43,166 nt of DNA, taken from assembly GCA_020347625.1 (NCBI GenBank), contig CP070735.1:2973403-3016568 (forward strand). Reading direction: 5' to 3'. A program made the translations under genes and the position numbers. Positions 2,929-23,591 of this stretch are shown here, one piece after another (within the stretch, counting starts at the first letter, position 1; the number at the start of each line of letters is the position of its first letter). The DNA is from Deltaproteobacteria bacterium (GTDB lineage: Bacteria > Desulfobacterota > Syntrophobacteria > BM002). Under the pieces are notes generated by a model. The model worked only from the letters and a program-made list of their open reading frames with translations, was not told the origin of the DNA and made no database searches.

Positions 2929-3948
2929 CTATAGATATTCCTTAGCCAAAAGCTCTGCAATCTGCACTGTGTTCAGAGCAGCTCCTTTACGTATATTATC
3001 GGCGACAATCCAAAGGTCGAGCCCGTTTTCGATGGAAATATCTTCTCGTATCCTACCCACCAAGGTGTCGTCAATGCCAGCCGCCTCCAAGGGCATTGGA
3101 TAGATCCGCTCATCTGGATTGTCCAAGACCTTGACGCCGGGCGCTCTGAAGAGCAAAACTCTGGCGTCTTTGGCCGAGAGCTTACGGCTGGTTTGAATGT
3201 TCACTGCTTCCGAATGACCGTAGAAGACCGGGATACGCACCGTGGTAGCGCTTACCCTAATGTCGGGATCCTCCATAATTTTCTGGGTTTCATAGACCAT
3301 CTTCATCTCTTCTTCGGTGTAGCCGTTTTCGAGGAAGCCGCCGATGTGGGGAAAGCAGTTAAATGCGATCCGATAGGGATAGACCTCCGGGGTCACCTCT
3401 TGGAAATTTAGCAGCAATCTTGTCTGGTCCATTAATTCCTGCATGGCGAGCTTGCCCGTGCCTGAAACCGCTTGGTATGTGGAGACTACCACCCGCTCAA
3501 TTCCCACAGCGTCATAGATGGGCTTGAGTACCACCACCATCTGGATGGTGGAACAGTTTGGGTTGGCGATAATGCCTTTGTTGCGATAGTCGGCCACTGC
3601 GTGAGGATTGACTTCTGGCACCACCAGTGGCACCTCAGGATCCATACGCCATCCGCTGGAGTTGTCTATCACGACACAACCAGAGTCGGCTGCCGCCGGG
3701 GCAAACTGTCGGCTGGCAGCTGCACCTGCAGAGAACAGGGCAATGTCCACTCCTTCGAAAGAATCCTCTCGGAGTTCTTCAACGGTGAGGCTTTTGCCAC
3801 GAAAATCAAGCGTCTTTCCAGCGGAGCGGGATGAGGCCAGCAGCTTGAGGGAAGCAACCGGAAACTTCTGCTCCTCAAGGATCTTGATCATCTCATTGCC
3901 CACGGCACCAGTGGCGCCGGCCACCGCTATGTGATATCCGTCTTTCAT
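2929..3948 (-). CDS. asd: aspartate-semialdehyde dehydrogenase
   Basis: NADPH-dependent reduction of aspartyl phosphate to aspartate semialdehyde, the branch point to lysine or diaminopimelate, threonine and methionine. The 339-residue protein begins with the Rossmann motif VAGATGAVG (residues 9-17). The active-site cysteine is Cys132 in NPNCSTIQ. The SSGWR and SGTGK motifs are also present. Length is normal. It sits downstream of leuB after 43 bases, an order usual in this phylum. Confidence 0.97.
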   Translation of the reverse strand: MKDGYHIAVAGATGAVGNEMIKILEEQKFPVASLKLLASSRSAGKTLDFRGKSLTVEELREDSFEGVDIALFSAGAAASRQFAPAAADSGCVVIDNSSGWRMDPEVPLVVPEVNPHAVADYRNKGIIANPNCSTIQMVVVLKPIYDAVGIERVVVSTYQAVSGTGKLAMQELMDQTRLLLNFQEVTPEVYPYRIAFNCFPHIGGFLENGYTEEEMKMVYETQKIMEDPDIRVSATTVRIPVFYGHSEAVNIQTSRKLSAKDARVLLFRAPGVKVLDNPDERIYPMPLEAAGIDDTLVGRIREDISIENGLDLWIVADNIRKGAALNTVQIAELLAKEYL

Positions 3949-21153: not shown

Positions 21154-21711
21154 TTAAATCTCAAGAATTTCCTTTTCTTTGGCCGAGCATATTTCTTCCA
21201 CTTGGGAGATAAACCGGTCAGTTGTCTTCTGGACTTCCTCCTGTGATCGAAACAGTTCATCCTCGGTGATATCTTTCTCTTTCTTGAGGTCTTTCAGCAT
21301 CTCGTTGGCATCCCTCCGGATGTTCCGAACTGCTACCTTGTTCTCTTCAGCCATTTTTCTCGCAACCTTGACCAGTTCTTTTCTCCGTTCCTCGGTAAGA
21401 GGCGGAATTGAAATGCGGATTACCTTACCATCATTCATAGGGGTGAGGCCCAATTCAGATTTCAGGATCGCCTTTTCTATGTCCTCCAGCGCCGTTTTAT
21501 CCCATGGCTGGACAACAATGAGACGAGGTTCCGGCACTGCGAGTGAGGCCATCTGATTGAGAGGGGTTGGCGTATCATAGTAAGAGACTCGAATGCCATC
21601 TAACAAAGAAATGGAAGCTCTGCCCGTGCGCAGCCTACTGTATTCTCGCTTGAGGGCCTCCACCGACTTTCCCATGCGCTCCTCGAGGTCTTCGAATATT
21701 TCTTCAACCAT
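21154..21711 (-). CDS. frr: ribosome recycling factor
   Basis: Splits post-termination ribosomes together with EF-G. The start is ATG 21711 ([20 protein letters not shown]), which overlaps the end of pyrH by eight bases and has GAGAGGAAA before it. The longer frame to 21795 only adds residues lying inside pyrH. The resulting 185 residues are the standard length, with the LRTGRAS motif near residue 29 and the C-terminal helical domain intact. Confidence 0.97.
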
Positions 21712-22432
21712 TTTCCTCTCCCTCCACAATCGTACCAACCGGCTCACCCATAACGACTCTTTTAATGTAACCACGCTTCGTGAGGTTAAAGACAATAACA
21801 GTCATATCATTGTCCATGGCTAACGATATTGCGGTGGAATCCATGACCTTGAGTTGTTTCTGCAAAACTTCAAGATAGGTAAGCCGTTCAATTTTCTTGA
21901 CACCCGGCGTCTTCAACGGGTCGGCGGGGTAGACGCCATCAACCTTGGTGGCCTTGAGAAGAACGTCGGCGTGTATCTCCATGGCTCGCAATGCGGCAGC
22001 AGTATCCGTTGTGAAATAAGGGTTGCCGGTTCCAGCTGCAAAGATGACGATGCGTCCTTTTTCCAGATGGCGAACAGCTCGCCGACGAATATAGGGCTCT
22101 GCCACCTCTCTCATGGTAATGGCAGACTGTACCCGGGTTTGTGCTCCCATTCTCTCCAAGGCATCCTGTAAGGCCAGAGCATTGATGGCGGTGGCCAACA
22201 TTCCCATGTAGTCCGCCGAAGCCCTGTCCATGCCGTAGGAGGAAGCGGCCAAGCCACGAAAGATGTTACCACCGCCTATAACCAAGGCTATCTCGACACC
22301 GAGACGGTCCACCTCAAATATATCCTCGGCCACACGGGAGATCACTTCGGGCACAATCCCGAAGGAGGCATCTCCCATCAGAGCCTCGCCGCTGATTTTG
22401 AGGAGGATACGCTTGTATTTCACTTCAGACAT
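21704..22432 (-). CDS. pyrH: uridylate kinase
   Basis: Phosphorylates UMP to UDP; a hexameric amino-acid-kinase-fold enzyme. KISGEALMG (residues 12-20), the GGGNIFRG motif (53-60) and [18 protein letters not shown] near residues 132-149 are diagnostic. The 242 residues are typical. It is preceded by a 553-base gap instead of lying close to tsf, and its stop overlaps frr. Confidence 0.97.
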
Positions 22433-22479
22433 GGTTGATCTTTCATTGCAATTTGTGGTTTTTATGTTGTGGGCTTAGA

Positions 22480-22810
22480 TTCAAGAACTGCTCTCTTCAA
22501 GCTGTACGCGGCTAGAAACTCGAAATCCTTGCCCGGTGGAATCCTGCCTGAGGCACGTTGGCAGAGCGGAATTCCCCAGGGCAAGCACCTAAGAAATAGG
22601 AGAATTAAGGAAAACGCCTATTGCCTTGGCTCCGCACGAACGCCTGAGAGCTGAGCCATTCCCTCCGCTTACGCTCGGTCTGCTACCCTTGCGGGGGGAA
22701 GTCCTTCGGACCGGAGGCAGTGGCAGCCCGAGCTGCGGATGTTGCCAGCCTCTGCAGCAACAGGCAGAACGGCCTAACCATTGAAGCTTACAGAGACTGA
22801 CAACATACGC
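22480..22810 (-). ncRNA. possible structured RNA upstream of pyrH
   Basis: Successive local helices can be drawn: CTTGCCC (22528-22534) with GGGCAAG (22579-22585), enclosing TGGAAT/ATTCC-type and TGCC/GGCA pairs; AATAGG (22595-22600) with CCTATT (22617-22622); GGCTC (22628-22632) with GAGCC (22653-22657); CCTCCG (22662-22667) with CGGAGG (22712-22717); GTCC/GGAC (22701-22711); GCAGC/GCTGC (22723-22736). On the - strand the loops include GCAA, GTAA and TTCG tetraloops, common in real RNAs, and this strand is co-directional with pyrH. No match to tRNA, tmRNA, RNase P, SRP or 6S hallmarks was recognised. Strand and limits are tentative. Confidence 0.3.
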
Positions 22811-22832
22811 CGCTTCGGGAATACCTCAGCCC

Positions 22833-22867
22833 TCAAGCCCAACCTATGCGGAGCTAAATACATATGC
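22833..22867. repeat. 35-base dispersed repeat, copy 2
   Basis: Same sequence as 7225-7259 with one G-to-A difference. It sits between the hairpin-rich segment and the octad element. Flanking bases are unlike those of copy 1. Confidence 0.85.
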
Positions 22868-22872
22868 GTTTC

Positions 22873-22948
22873 AGGAATTTGGATTCAATTTTGGAATTGC
22901 CTCTGAGAAGGGCATCTTTTAATTGAATCCCTAAATTCCTAAATTGGT
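22873..22948. repeat. octad quasi-palindrome, GGATTCAA/CCTAAATT words
   Basis: Left arm (about 22873-22897) carries GGAATTTG, GATTCAAT, TTTGGAAT. Right arm is AATTGAAT, CCCTAAAT, TCCTAAAT, TGGTTTCG (22921-22952) in an 8-base register. The vocabulary is close to that of the octad element at 19196. It ends about 35 bases downstream of the tsf stop. Confidence 0.65.
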
Positions 22949-22985: not shown

Positions 22986-23591
22986 CTAGCCAGTCGTATC
23001 TTCACCCAACTGGTACCGGGTAAAACGTCTTACCAGTATATTTTCTCCAGTTTTGGCTCGCAATTCATTGAGAAGGTCATCGATGGTTACGTCTGTGTCA
23101 CGCACGTATGATTGTTCAAGGAGGCAAACCTCCTGGTAGAATTTGTTAAGCTTGCCCTCCGTGATCTTATCGATAATTTTTTCAGGCTTTCCAGAATCTA
23201 AGGCCTGGGCCCTGTAGACACTTTGTTCTCGCTCCACCAACTCAGGAGCGAGATCCTCGCGGTCGATGGCCAGAGGGTTGGTTGCAGCGATGTGCATGGC
23301 AAGGTTTTTGACAAAGTCAGAAAAGGGTTCACTCTTGGCCGTGAAGTCGGTTTCACAGTTTACTTCCACCATGACGCCTATCTTGCCGCCTGCGTGGATA
23401 TAAGAATGGACCAGACCTTCACTGGCAACTCTCCCCGCCCGTTTACGAGCGACGGCCAGACCTTTCTGTCTCAGGTAATCCACGGCTTTTTCCATGTCGC
23501 CCTGGGTTTCCTGGAGCGCCGCCTTACAGTCCATAATCCCAGCGTTGGTTTTTTCCCGTAAATCTTTTACCATTGCCGAAGTGAGTTGCAA
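22986..23591 (-). CDS. tsf: elongation factor Ts
   Basis: Nucleotide exchange factor for EF-Tu. The N-terminal UBA-like domain LREKTNAGIMDCKAALQE (residues 12-29) and the conserved ETDFTAKSEPF segment (near 83-93) are clear. The protein is 201 residues, the short form with a single compact core repeat, compared with about 280 in E. coli; short forms are usual in this phylum. It follows rpsB after 22 bases. Confidence 0.96.
   Translation of the reverse strand: MQLTSAMVKDLREKTNAGIMDCKAALQETQGDMEKAVDYLRQKGLAVARKRAGRVASEGLVHSYIHAGGKIGVMVEVNCETDFTAKSEPFSDFVKNLAMHIAATNPLAIDREDLAPELVEREQSVYRAQALDSGKPEKIIDKITEGKLNKFYQEVCLLEQSYVRDTDVTIDDLLNELRAKTGENILVRRFTRYQLGEDTTG

Follow-up and report, generated by a model that had tools for sequence, protein, structure and literature searches.

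The 43,166-nucleotide stretch of DNA analysed here (hereafter the window) carries tsf and pyrH on the minus strand, separated by a spacer of 553 nt (Table 1). When positions 22590-22890 were folded, the minus strand reached -137.8 kcal/mol (z -5.98, with 0 of 100 shuffled sequences equal or better), and the plus strand gave a z value of -4.18. The unusual folding reported for this spacer in a preliminary description is thus above chance on both strands, but the folded part is a copy of a mobile repeat and not an RNA belonging to tsf-pyrH. The boundaries proposed there (22480-22810) need to be moved at both sides: positions 22490-22605 lie outside the repeat, fold barely beyond shuffled sequences (z -1.01 on the minus and -1.37 on the plus strand) and have a single weak match elsewhere in the genome, while the unit itself extends past 22810 to 22869. 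GCAA and GUAA strings, described earlier as GNRA-type loops of the minus strand, do occur; GUAA, however, is located at the junction and forms no hairpin loop in the conserved structure. The element, referred to as family A, contains only short overlapping ORFs of 41-61 amino acids (minimum length in the ORF list, 40 amino acids).

Two further features of the spacer were observed. An imperfect hairpin (CTTGCCC...GGGCAAG) is present at 22520-22597, upstream of pyrH and outside the repeat, with a fold z value of about -1 and one weakly similar place in the genome. The AT-rich segment 22868-22990 downstream of tsf resembles four other places in the genome and might be a further dispersed repeat or an insertion hotspot.

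Table 1. Positions of the family A element, its parts and the flanking genes in the window.
Feature	Position	Strand	Remarks
tsf (upstream neighbour)	22986..23591	-	ORF; tblastn against relatives
Target duplication, copy 1	22870..22878	.	ATTCCTGAA on the minus strand; 7/9 identical to copy 2; across the family the signal peaks at 9 bp (z 5.1)
Whole inserted element, family A	22614..22869	-	256 bp including 1 base past the terminal CG on each side; repeat matches, ends, target duplication
5' terminal inverted repeat	22847..22868	-	CGCATATGTATTTAGCTCCGCA; 16/22 identical to the 3' end; last 8 bases form outer stem P1
Conserved three-way-junction core	22644..22834	-	Matches of models R1 and R2; pair counts
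Helix P2	5' side 22825..22834, 3' side 22646-22655	-	10/10 pairs changed on both sides (16-copy cross-family set)
Helix P2b, after P2	22817-22821 with 22659-22663	-	3/5 pairs changed on both sides (16-copy cross-family set)
Helix P3 (span 22744..22801)	22790-22801 with 22744-22755; base 22803-22810 with 22735-22742	-	11/12 P3 pairs changed on both sides (16-copy cross-family set)
Helix P4 (span 22673..22733)	22723-22733 with 22673-22683	-	81.0% of cells paired; 4/10 pairs changed on both sides (16-copy cross-family set)
3' terminal inverted repeat	22615..22636	-	CGCCTATTGCCTTGGCTCCGCA (plus strand reading)
Target duplication, copy 2	22605..22613	.	TTTCCTTAA on the minus strand
pyrH (downstream neighbour)	21704..22432	-	ORF; search of relatives

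Both strands were searched against Rfam and gave no match above chance level, in agreement with the earlier remark that hallmarks of known housekeeping RNAs are missing. In the window no match reached gathering level, and four matches around the spacer with E values of 1.4-9.7 (tp2, mir-621, SPRY4-IT1_1, PtaRNA1) were taken as chance; HEARO or omega RNA models did not match in the window. The same search with a copy from a sister genus, G010, returned only two chance-level miRNA matches.

A search of the same genome with positions 22400-22900 detected 32 places, those of at least 100 nt being 71-89% identical, and a search with the copy consensus detected 31. In the aligned copies the unit measures about 255 bp, its inverted ends are imperfect and its apical part varies. 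In some copies the arms are replaced by short GC hairpins, and L031 and L032 retain little beyond the outer arms. The class-wide search with a model of the core yielded 34 matches in this genome (by row count, 20 distinct loci and 14 opposite-strand duplicates); about nine more loci consist of arms only. Family A was found in seven of the nine genus genomes examined and not in G004 and G007. The alignments used below comprised (i) 45 copies (A1); (ii) 44 of 112 nhmmer rows retained by span and score cuts, a further copy, L050, being cut by a contig end (A2); (iii) 33 of these 44 plus one copy from G010 (A3); (iv) 21 copies plus six from G009 and G010 (A4); and (v) five genus copies plus 11 others (A6).

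In G000, copies L013, L017, L022, L024 and L012 carry short GC hairpins of the GTCCCGCC..GGCGGGAC type which replace sequence or are inserted at set points around P3. Their presence in family A, and of similar ones in the second family introduced below, suggests a nested mini-repeat.

Target duplication was assessed for 43 of the 44 family A copies (one containing N was left out). With the terminal CG as reference, a scan over a grid of offsets put the highest signal at 9 bp, where z was 5.1 relative to re-paired flanks; with fixed ends it peaked at 10 bp (z 4.9), and a boundary search outperformed 500 of 500 re-pairings. The duplication has decayed, with seven of 9 bp retained in the window copy, and nine of 30 copies had no repeat of at least 4 bp in the boundary search. 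Relative to neighbouring genes, orientation was unbiased among 49 scored copies (-/- 18, +/+ 13, -/+ 10, +/- 8), the classes being derived from a crude longest-ORF method.

Copies were 92% identical to each other within G006, 88% within G001 and 72% within G000, and between genomes identity was 64-75% for all pairs except G001-G003 (86%). Together with the tree, these values point to lineage-specific bursts. Nine of the ten partial copies in G006 (L163-L172) adjoin a 100-N gap and are uninformative with respect to structure; assemblies of this kind are therefore interrupted where the element lies, and copy counts come out too low. A 19-base string of the core had exact matches in metagenome-assembled genomes (MAGs) of Deltaproteobacteria bacterium (bin63, ALJrbin.12, ALSabin.159) and Syntrophobacterales bacterium (CSMAG_766, CSMAG_2358). 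Plasmid and phage collections contained no match to the element, and viral contigs no exact match to the 19-base string.

The ends are not confined to family A. The end pattern CGCATATGTATTCAACTCCGC, allowing up to three mismatches, occurs at 17 sites of the same genome (reversed-pattern control, 0), 15 of which belong to family A; the other two flank another interior, of the GTCATCCCGGC/ATTCCGG type, designated family B. The palindromic family B loci noted in G000 are L183:3834-4082 and L184 around 3640-3881. A search with a family B query returned 17 rows: the query itself, one family A copy detected via its end, and 15 others (about 14 loci, several of them short). Among these loci, both ends were present at the tolerance used only in L186, L189 and L190; one end was present in L187, L188, L193 and the L198/L199 locus, and none in the remaining family B loci. 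Sites for a degenerate form of the ends exist in each of the nine genus genomes, G004 and G007 among them (control, 0). Twenty such loci were fetched; 17 had paired ends 225-384 bp apart, and 13 of these 17 aligned with the interior of L183 over more than 80 nt. Ten elements, namely those of 230-262 bp among the 17 paired ones plus L186, were aligned. Family B forms a long palindrome (fold z -5.2) with a target duplication at 8 bp (z 4.1 in 20 copies, again the best of a grid of offsets).

Two unrelated interiors sharing one set of ends are the picture expected of miniature inverted-repeat transposable elements (MITEs) that are moved in trans. Positions 22614-22869 are thus very probably an insertion of a non-autonomous MITE-type DNA element: the ends are inverted (16 of 22 positions identical in the window copy), a target duplication is present, and the 256-bp unit occurs in many copies and contains no transposase gene. 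In the mechanism envisaged, a transposase supplied in trans would recognize the inverted ends of about 22 bp, and transposition would duplicate 8-9 bp of AT-rich intergenic target; the element would have multiplied in bursts specific to individual lineages, with one insertion in this species falling between tsf and pyrH. REP/BIME sequences mobilized by RAYT would probably be a different case, as target duplication and inverted ends point to another mechanism. Against a plain MITE stand the decay of the duplication and the fact that no autonomous element with these ends was present among the 17 end matches of the genome. Similarly, no autonomous partner was detected beside four partial copies, where the inner ORFs were read as metabolic or housekeeping genes (dnaN, dnaA, leuC, leuD and others), and a transposase was identified neither there nor at the end sites of the genome. 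Plain MITE status also fails to explain the core, as the latter is conserved across genera and under different ends, beyond what passive filler would require. The resemblance of the spacer to a structured RNA is due to the palindromic, though imperfect, layout of the element around a three-way-junction core with conserved pairing.

Conservation of the core beyond the genus was examined with covariance models. Model R1, built from the core of 33 genus copies and one G010 copy, matched nine of 55 genomes of the class, namely seven in the genus and two from sister genera, G010 with five matches of at most 114 bits and G009 with one of 31 bits. Model R2, to which more G010 copies and one G009 copy had been added, matched at least five of 395 genomes drawn from the phylum. 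Besides the genome of the window these were G390, with at least four loci at 53-76 bits, G426 at 40 bits, and two genomes whose matches are at chance level. Since six candidates were scored per genome in this search, copy numbers are lower bounds and weak matches may be lost. Copies in G390 and G426 were also detected (26-56 bits) by R1, which contains no sequence from either genome. The core is present in two further bacterial families. In one of them the inverted repeats around it are different: each of the four G390 copies found is enclosed by an inverted repeat (22-28 nt) that, by reading, is unlike the genus ends in sequence. The G010 copies inspected had no clear inverted ends. The folded core outlives changes of its ends. 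Matches in G188 and G228, which scored 22-25 bits (per-genome E 0.001-0.006 in the set of 395), and a match in G036 were treated as chance.

G426, from a distant family of the phylum, has two divergent core copies close together (L260:1261-1393 and 1501-1628). In G010 (L253-L255) the sequence at the base of P4 is GCGA/GAGC, which may form a tandem G-A mismatch. The loop string CCATGGAC is common to L255 (G010), L258 (G009) and the G390 copies (L259) and may represent a conserved motif.

Pairing was evaluated in three sets of copies. In the 44 genus copies, 24 compensatory events fitted the structure, compared to 1-8 in 12 slid controls. When events were placed on the genus tree, 149 kept a pair and 165 broke one, with many of the breaks in the outer stem. 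In the set of 27 copies, which extends to sister genera, 20 of the 46 pairs had changed on both sides (51 cells versus 11.6 in shuffled alignments; slid controls, 8-18); these counts omit small helices in the P4 loop. In the 16 cross-family copies, 31 of 46 pairs had changed on both sides and were still paired (114 cells versus 36.7 shuffled, a value reached in 0 of 500 shuffles; slid controls, 9-23), the alignment having been fitted to the model, which favours the pair count. P4 was the weakest helix in this set, with 81% of cells paired. An all-pairs test of the genus alignment against a tree null returned one column pair at E<0.5, which lies outside the structure, and no structural pair. 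The earlier idea of a structured nucleic acid is supported by the compensatory substitutions of the 27-copy and cross-family sets, whereas in the genus set the 24 compensatory events stand beside the 165 that broke a pair.

Whether this fold is selected as RNA or as DNA can be approached through mismatches. A strand selected as RNA should tolerate G-U but not A-C. In the genus, changes away from Watson-Crick pairs, counted at pairs predicted from both strands, gave 65 G-U and 22 A-C (p 4e-6). The asymmetry was weaker for pairs predicted from the reverse strand alone (87 G-U versus 53 A-C; p 0.005), and after correction for the substitution bias in unpaired columns 81 G-U stood against 36 A-C (p 0.005). 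By events, the outer stem (13 G-U versus 15 A-C) and family B (19 versus 25) were symmetric; by cells, however, family B had an excess of G-U (95 versus 39). No asymmetry was seen in cells outside the genus (14 G-U versus 10 A-C; 5 versus 9 in G010 alone). The two strands did not differ in folding energy over the 44 copies (p 0.14), and no sigma-70-like promoter was seen. As wobble tolerance is strand-specific in the genus and symmetric outside it, the fold may be kept as RNA or as DNA; within the genus alone, the wobble pattern leans weakly to RNA.

One possibility, which is tentative, is that the core is a functional RNA travelling inside mobile elements. The minus strand transcript (in window orientation) would fold into the three-way junction and act for the element or the host, e.g., by binding a protein. 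This is consistent with the compensatory change across families, with retention of the core within different inverted repeats in G390, and with the G-U excess in the genus, which persists after bias correction, combined with symmetry by events in the outer stem and family B. It is at odds with the lack of wobble asymmetry outside the genus, the G-U richness of family B cells, the unbiased orientation, the similar folding energies of the two strands, the absence of a sigma-70-like site and the absence of structural pairs in the all-pairs test.

Some of these observations would rather be expected if the core were a DNA structure, i.e., a hairpin or cruciform on single-stranded DNA, needed by the element for its transposition or recognized by a DNA-binding protein, with RNA being irrelevant. 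Such a role, likewise conceivable but short of probable, would account for a palindromic fold that is strong on both strands, for the long palindrome likewise formed by family B, which shares the ends, for the unbiased orientation and for the symmetric mismatches outside the genus. It does not predict the strand-asymmetric wobble tolerance within the genus; moreover, family B spreads with the same ends and without the core, which makes the core dispensable for the ends to work. Families A and B, with and without the core but with common ends, constitute a natural control pair.

A leader or attenuator that acts in cis and serves pyrH-frr-uppS specifically, as suggested in the preliminary description, is very improbable: the structured strand of the window copy is indeed the sense strand of the operon, but numerous unrelated loci carry the same element, in either orientation, and the tsf-pyrH spacers of ten relatives lack it. 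The latter result comes from a profile search of the tsf-pyrH loci of ten relatives having both genes on one fetched locus, in which the window's own locus was the sole match; the homologous spacers in which the structure had been expected thus lack the element in all ten cases. The lengths of these spacers (27-326 nt, measured from the end of the tblastn match) are highly variable. The view of a normally short spacer applies to the sister genera, with 27, 48 and 172 nt; in the genus, at 80-326 nt, it does not hold. The position beside pyrH looks like an insertion accident, and nothing suggests a dedicated switch of the pyrH genes. Explaining a long structured spacer of a housekeeping operon as an insertion avoids a false riboswitch call. 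If tsf-pyrH were transcribed through, the structured strand of the window copy would be part of the message and could influence its processing, an effect that ERIC or NEMIS copies are reported to have.

The reading preferred here, a MITE-like insertion, leaves room for a role of its content. The element is MITE-like with a folded centre preserved across families and represents a repeat family without an Rfam match; judged by its substitution pattern, this folded middle may also act as RNA. Taken further, the core could be a structured RNA class spreading as MITE cargo, in which a three-way junction conserved across several bacterial families is carried by elements with unrelated ends, the RNA being the continuous unit; we regard this as rather doubtful at present. 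It becomes testable whether some MITEs of bacteria contain a functional RNA, or else a DNA structure on which their spread depends.

Prokaryotic MITEs are described in a review as elements of 50-500 bp with inverted ends and target duplication which reside at AT-rich intergenic sites and can form stem-loops; one of them is Chunjie of Geobacter uraniireducens, which is 235 bp long and has dozens of copies measuring 178-235 bp (PMC10969869). Family A agrees with this description, and by description with Chunjie, in size, inverted ends, target duplication, AT-rich intergenic sites and stem-loops. It departs from the MITEs described there in that compensatory change has preserved its core across families and within differing ends, and in that no autonomous partner was found (PMC10969869).

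ERIC, NEMIS/Correia, RUP, RPE and CIR are small palindromic mobile sequences in intergenic regions, some of which act on mRNA stability or processing when cotranscribed, according to the portion of the review by Delihas considered here (PMC2229807). Family A is likewise a small palindromic mobile intergenic repeat; as far as these repeats are described in that portion, it is set apart by its greater length and its branched core (PMC2229807).

A survey of motifs from 2024 regarded multicopy covarying motifs of inconsistent orientation as mobile candidates and possibly as structured DNA (PMC11109978, in the part available). One of them, MRSC-65-2, resembles family A in being multicopy, covarying and inconsistent in orientation, with the choice between RNA and DNA undecided. 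MRSC-65-2 is a single long stem, whereas family A forms a three-way junction, a comparison that covers MRSC-65-2 alone, beside 249 other mobile candidates (PMC11109978). Family B resembles the UYCCGG repeat of MRSC-65-2, which is a resemblance only (PMC11109978).

Finally, multicopy sequences are reported for Geobacter bemidjiensis and Pelobacter carbinolicus in the two genome papers, with palindromic intergenic families in G. bemidjiensis (PMC2996986, PMC3543383). By these descriptions, family A is comparable to the multicopy repeats of both species, which are members of the old delta-proteobacteria, and it shares its palindromic nature and intergenic location with those described for G. bemidjiensis (PMC2996986, PMC3543383).
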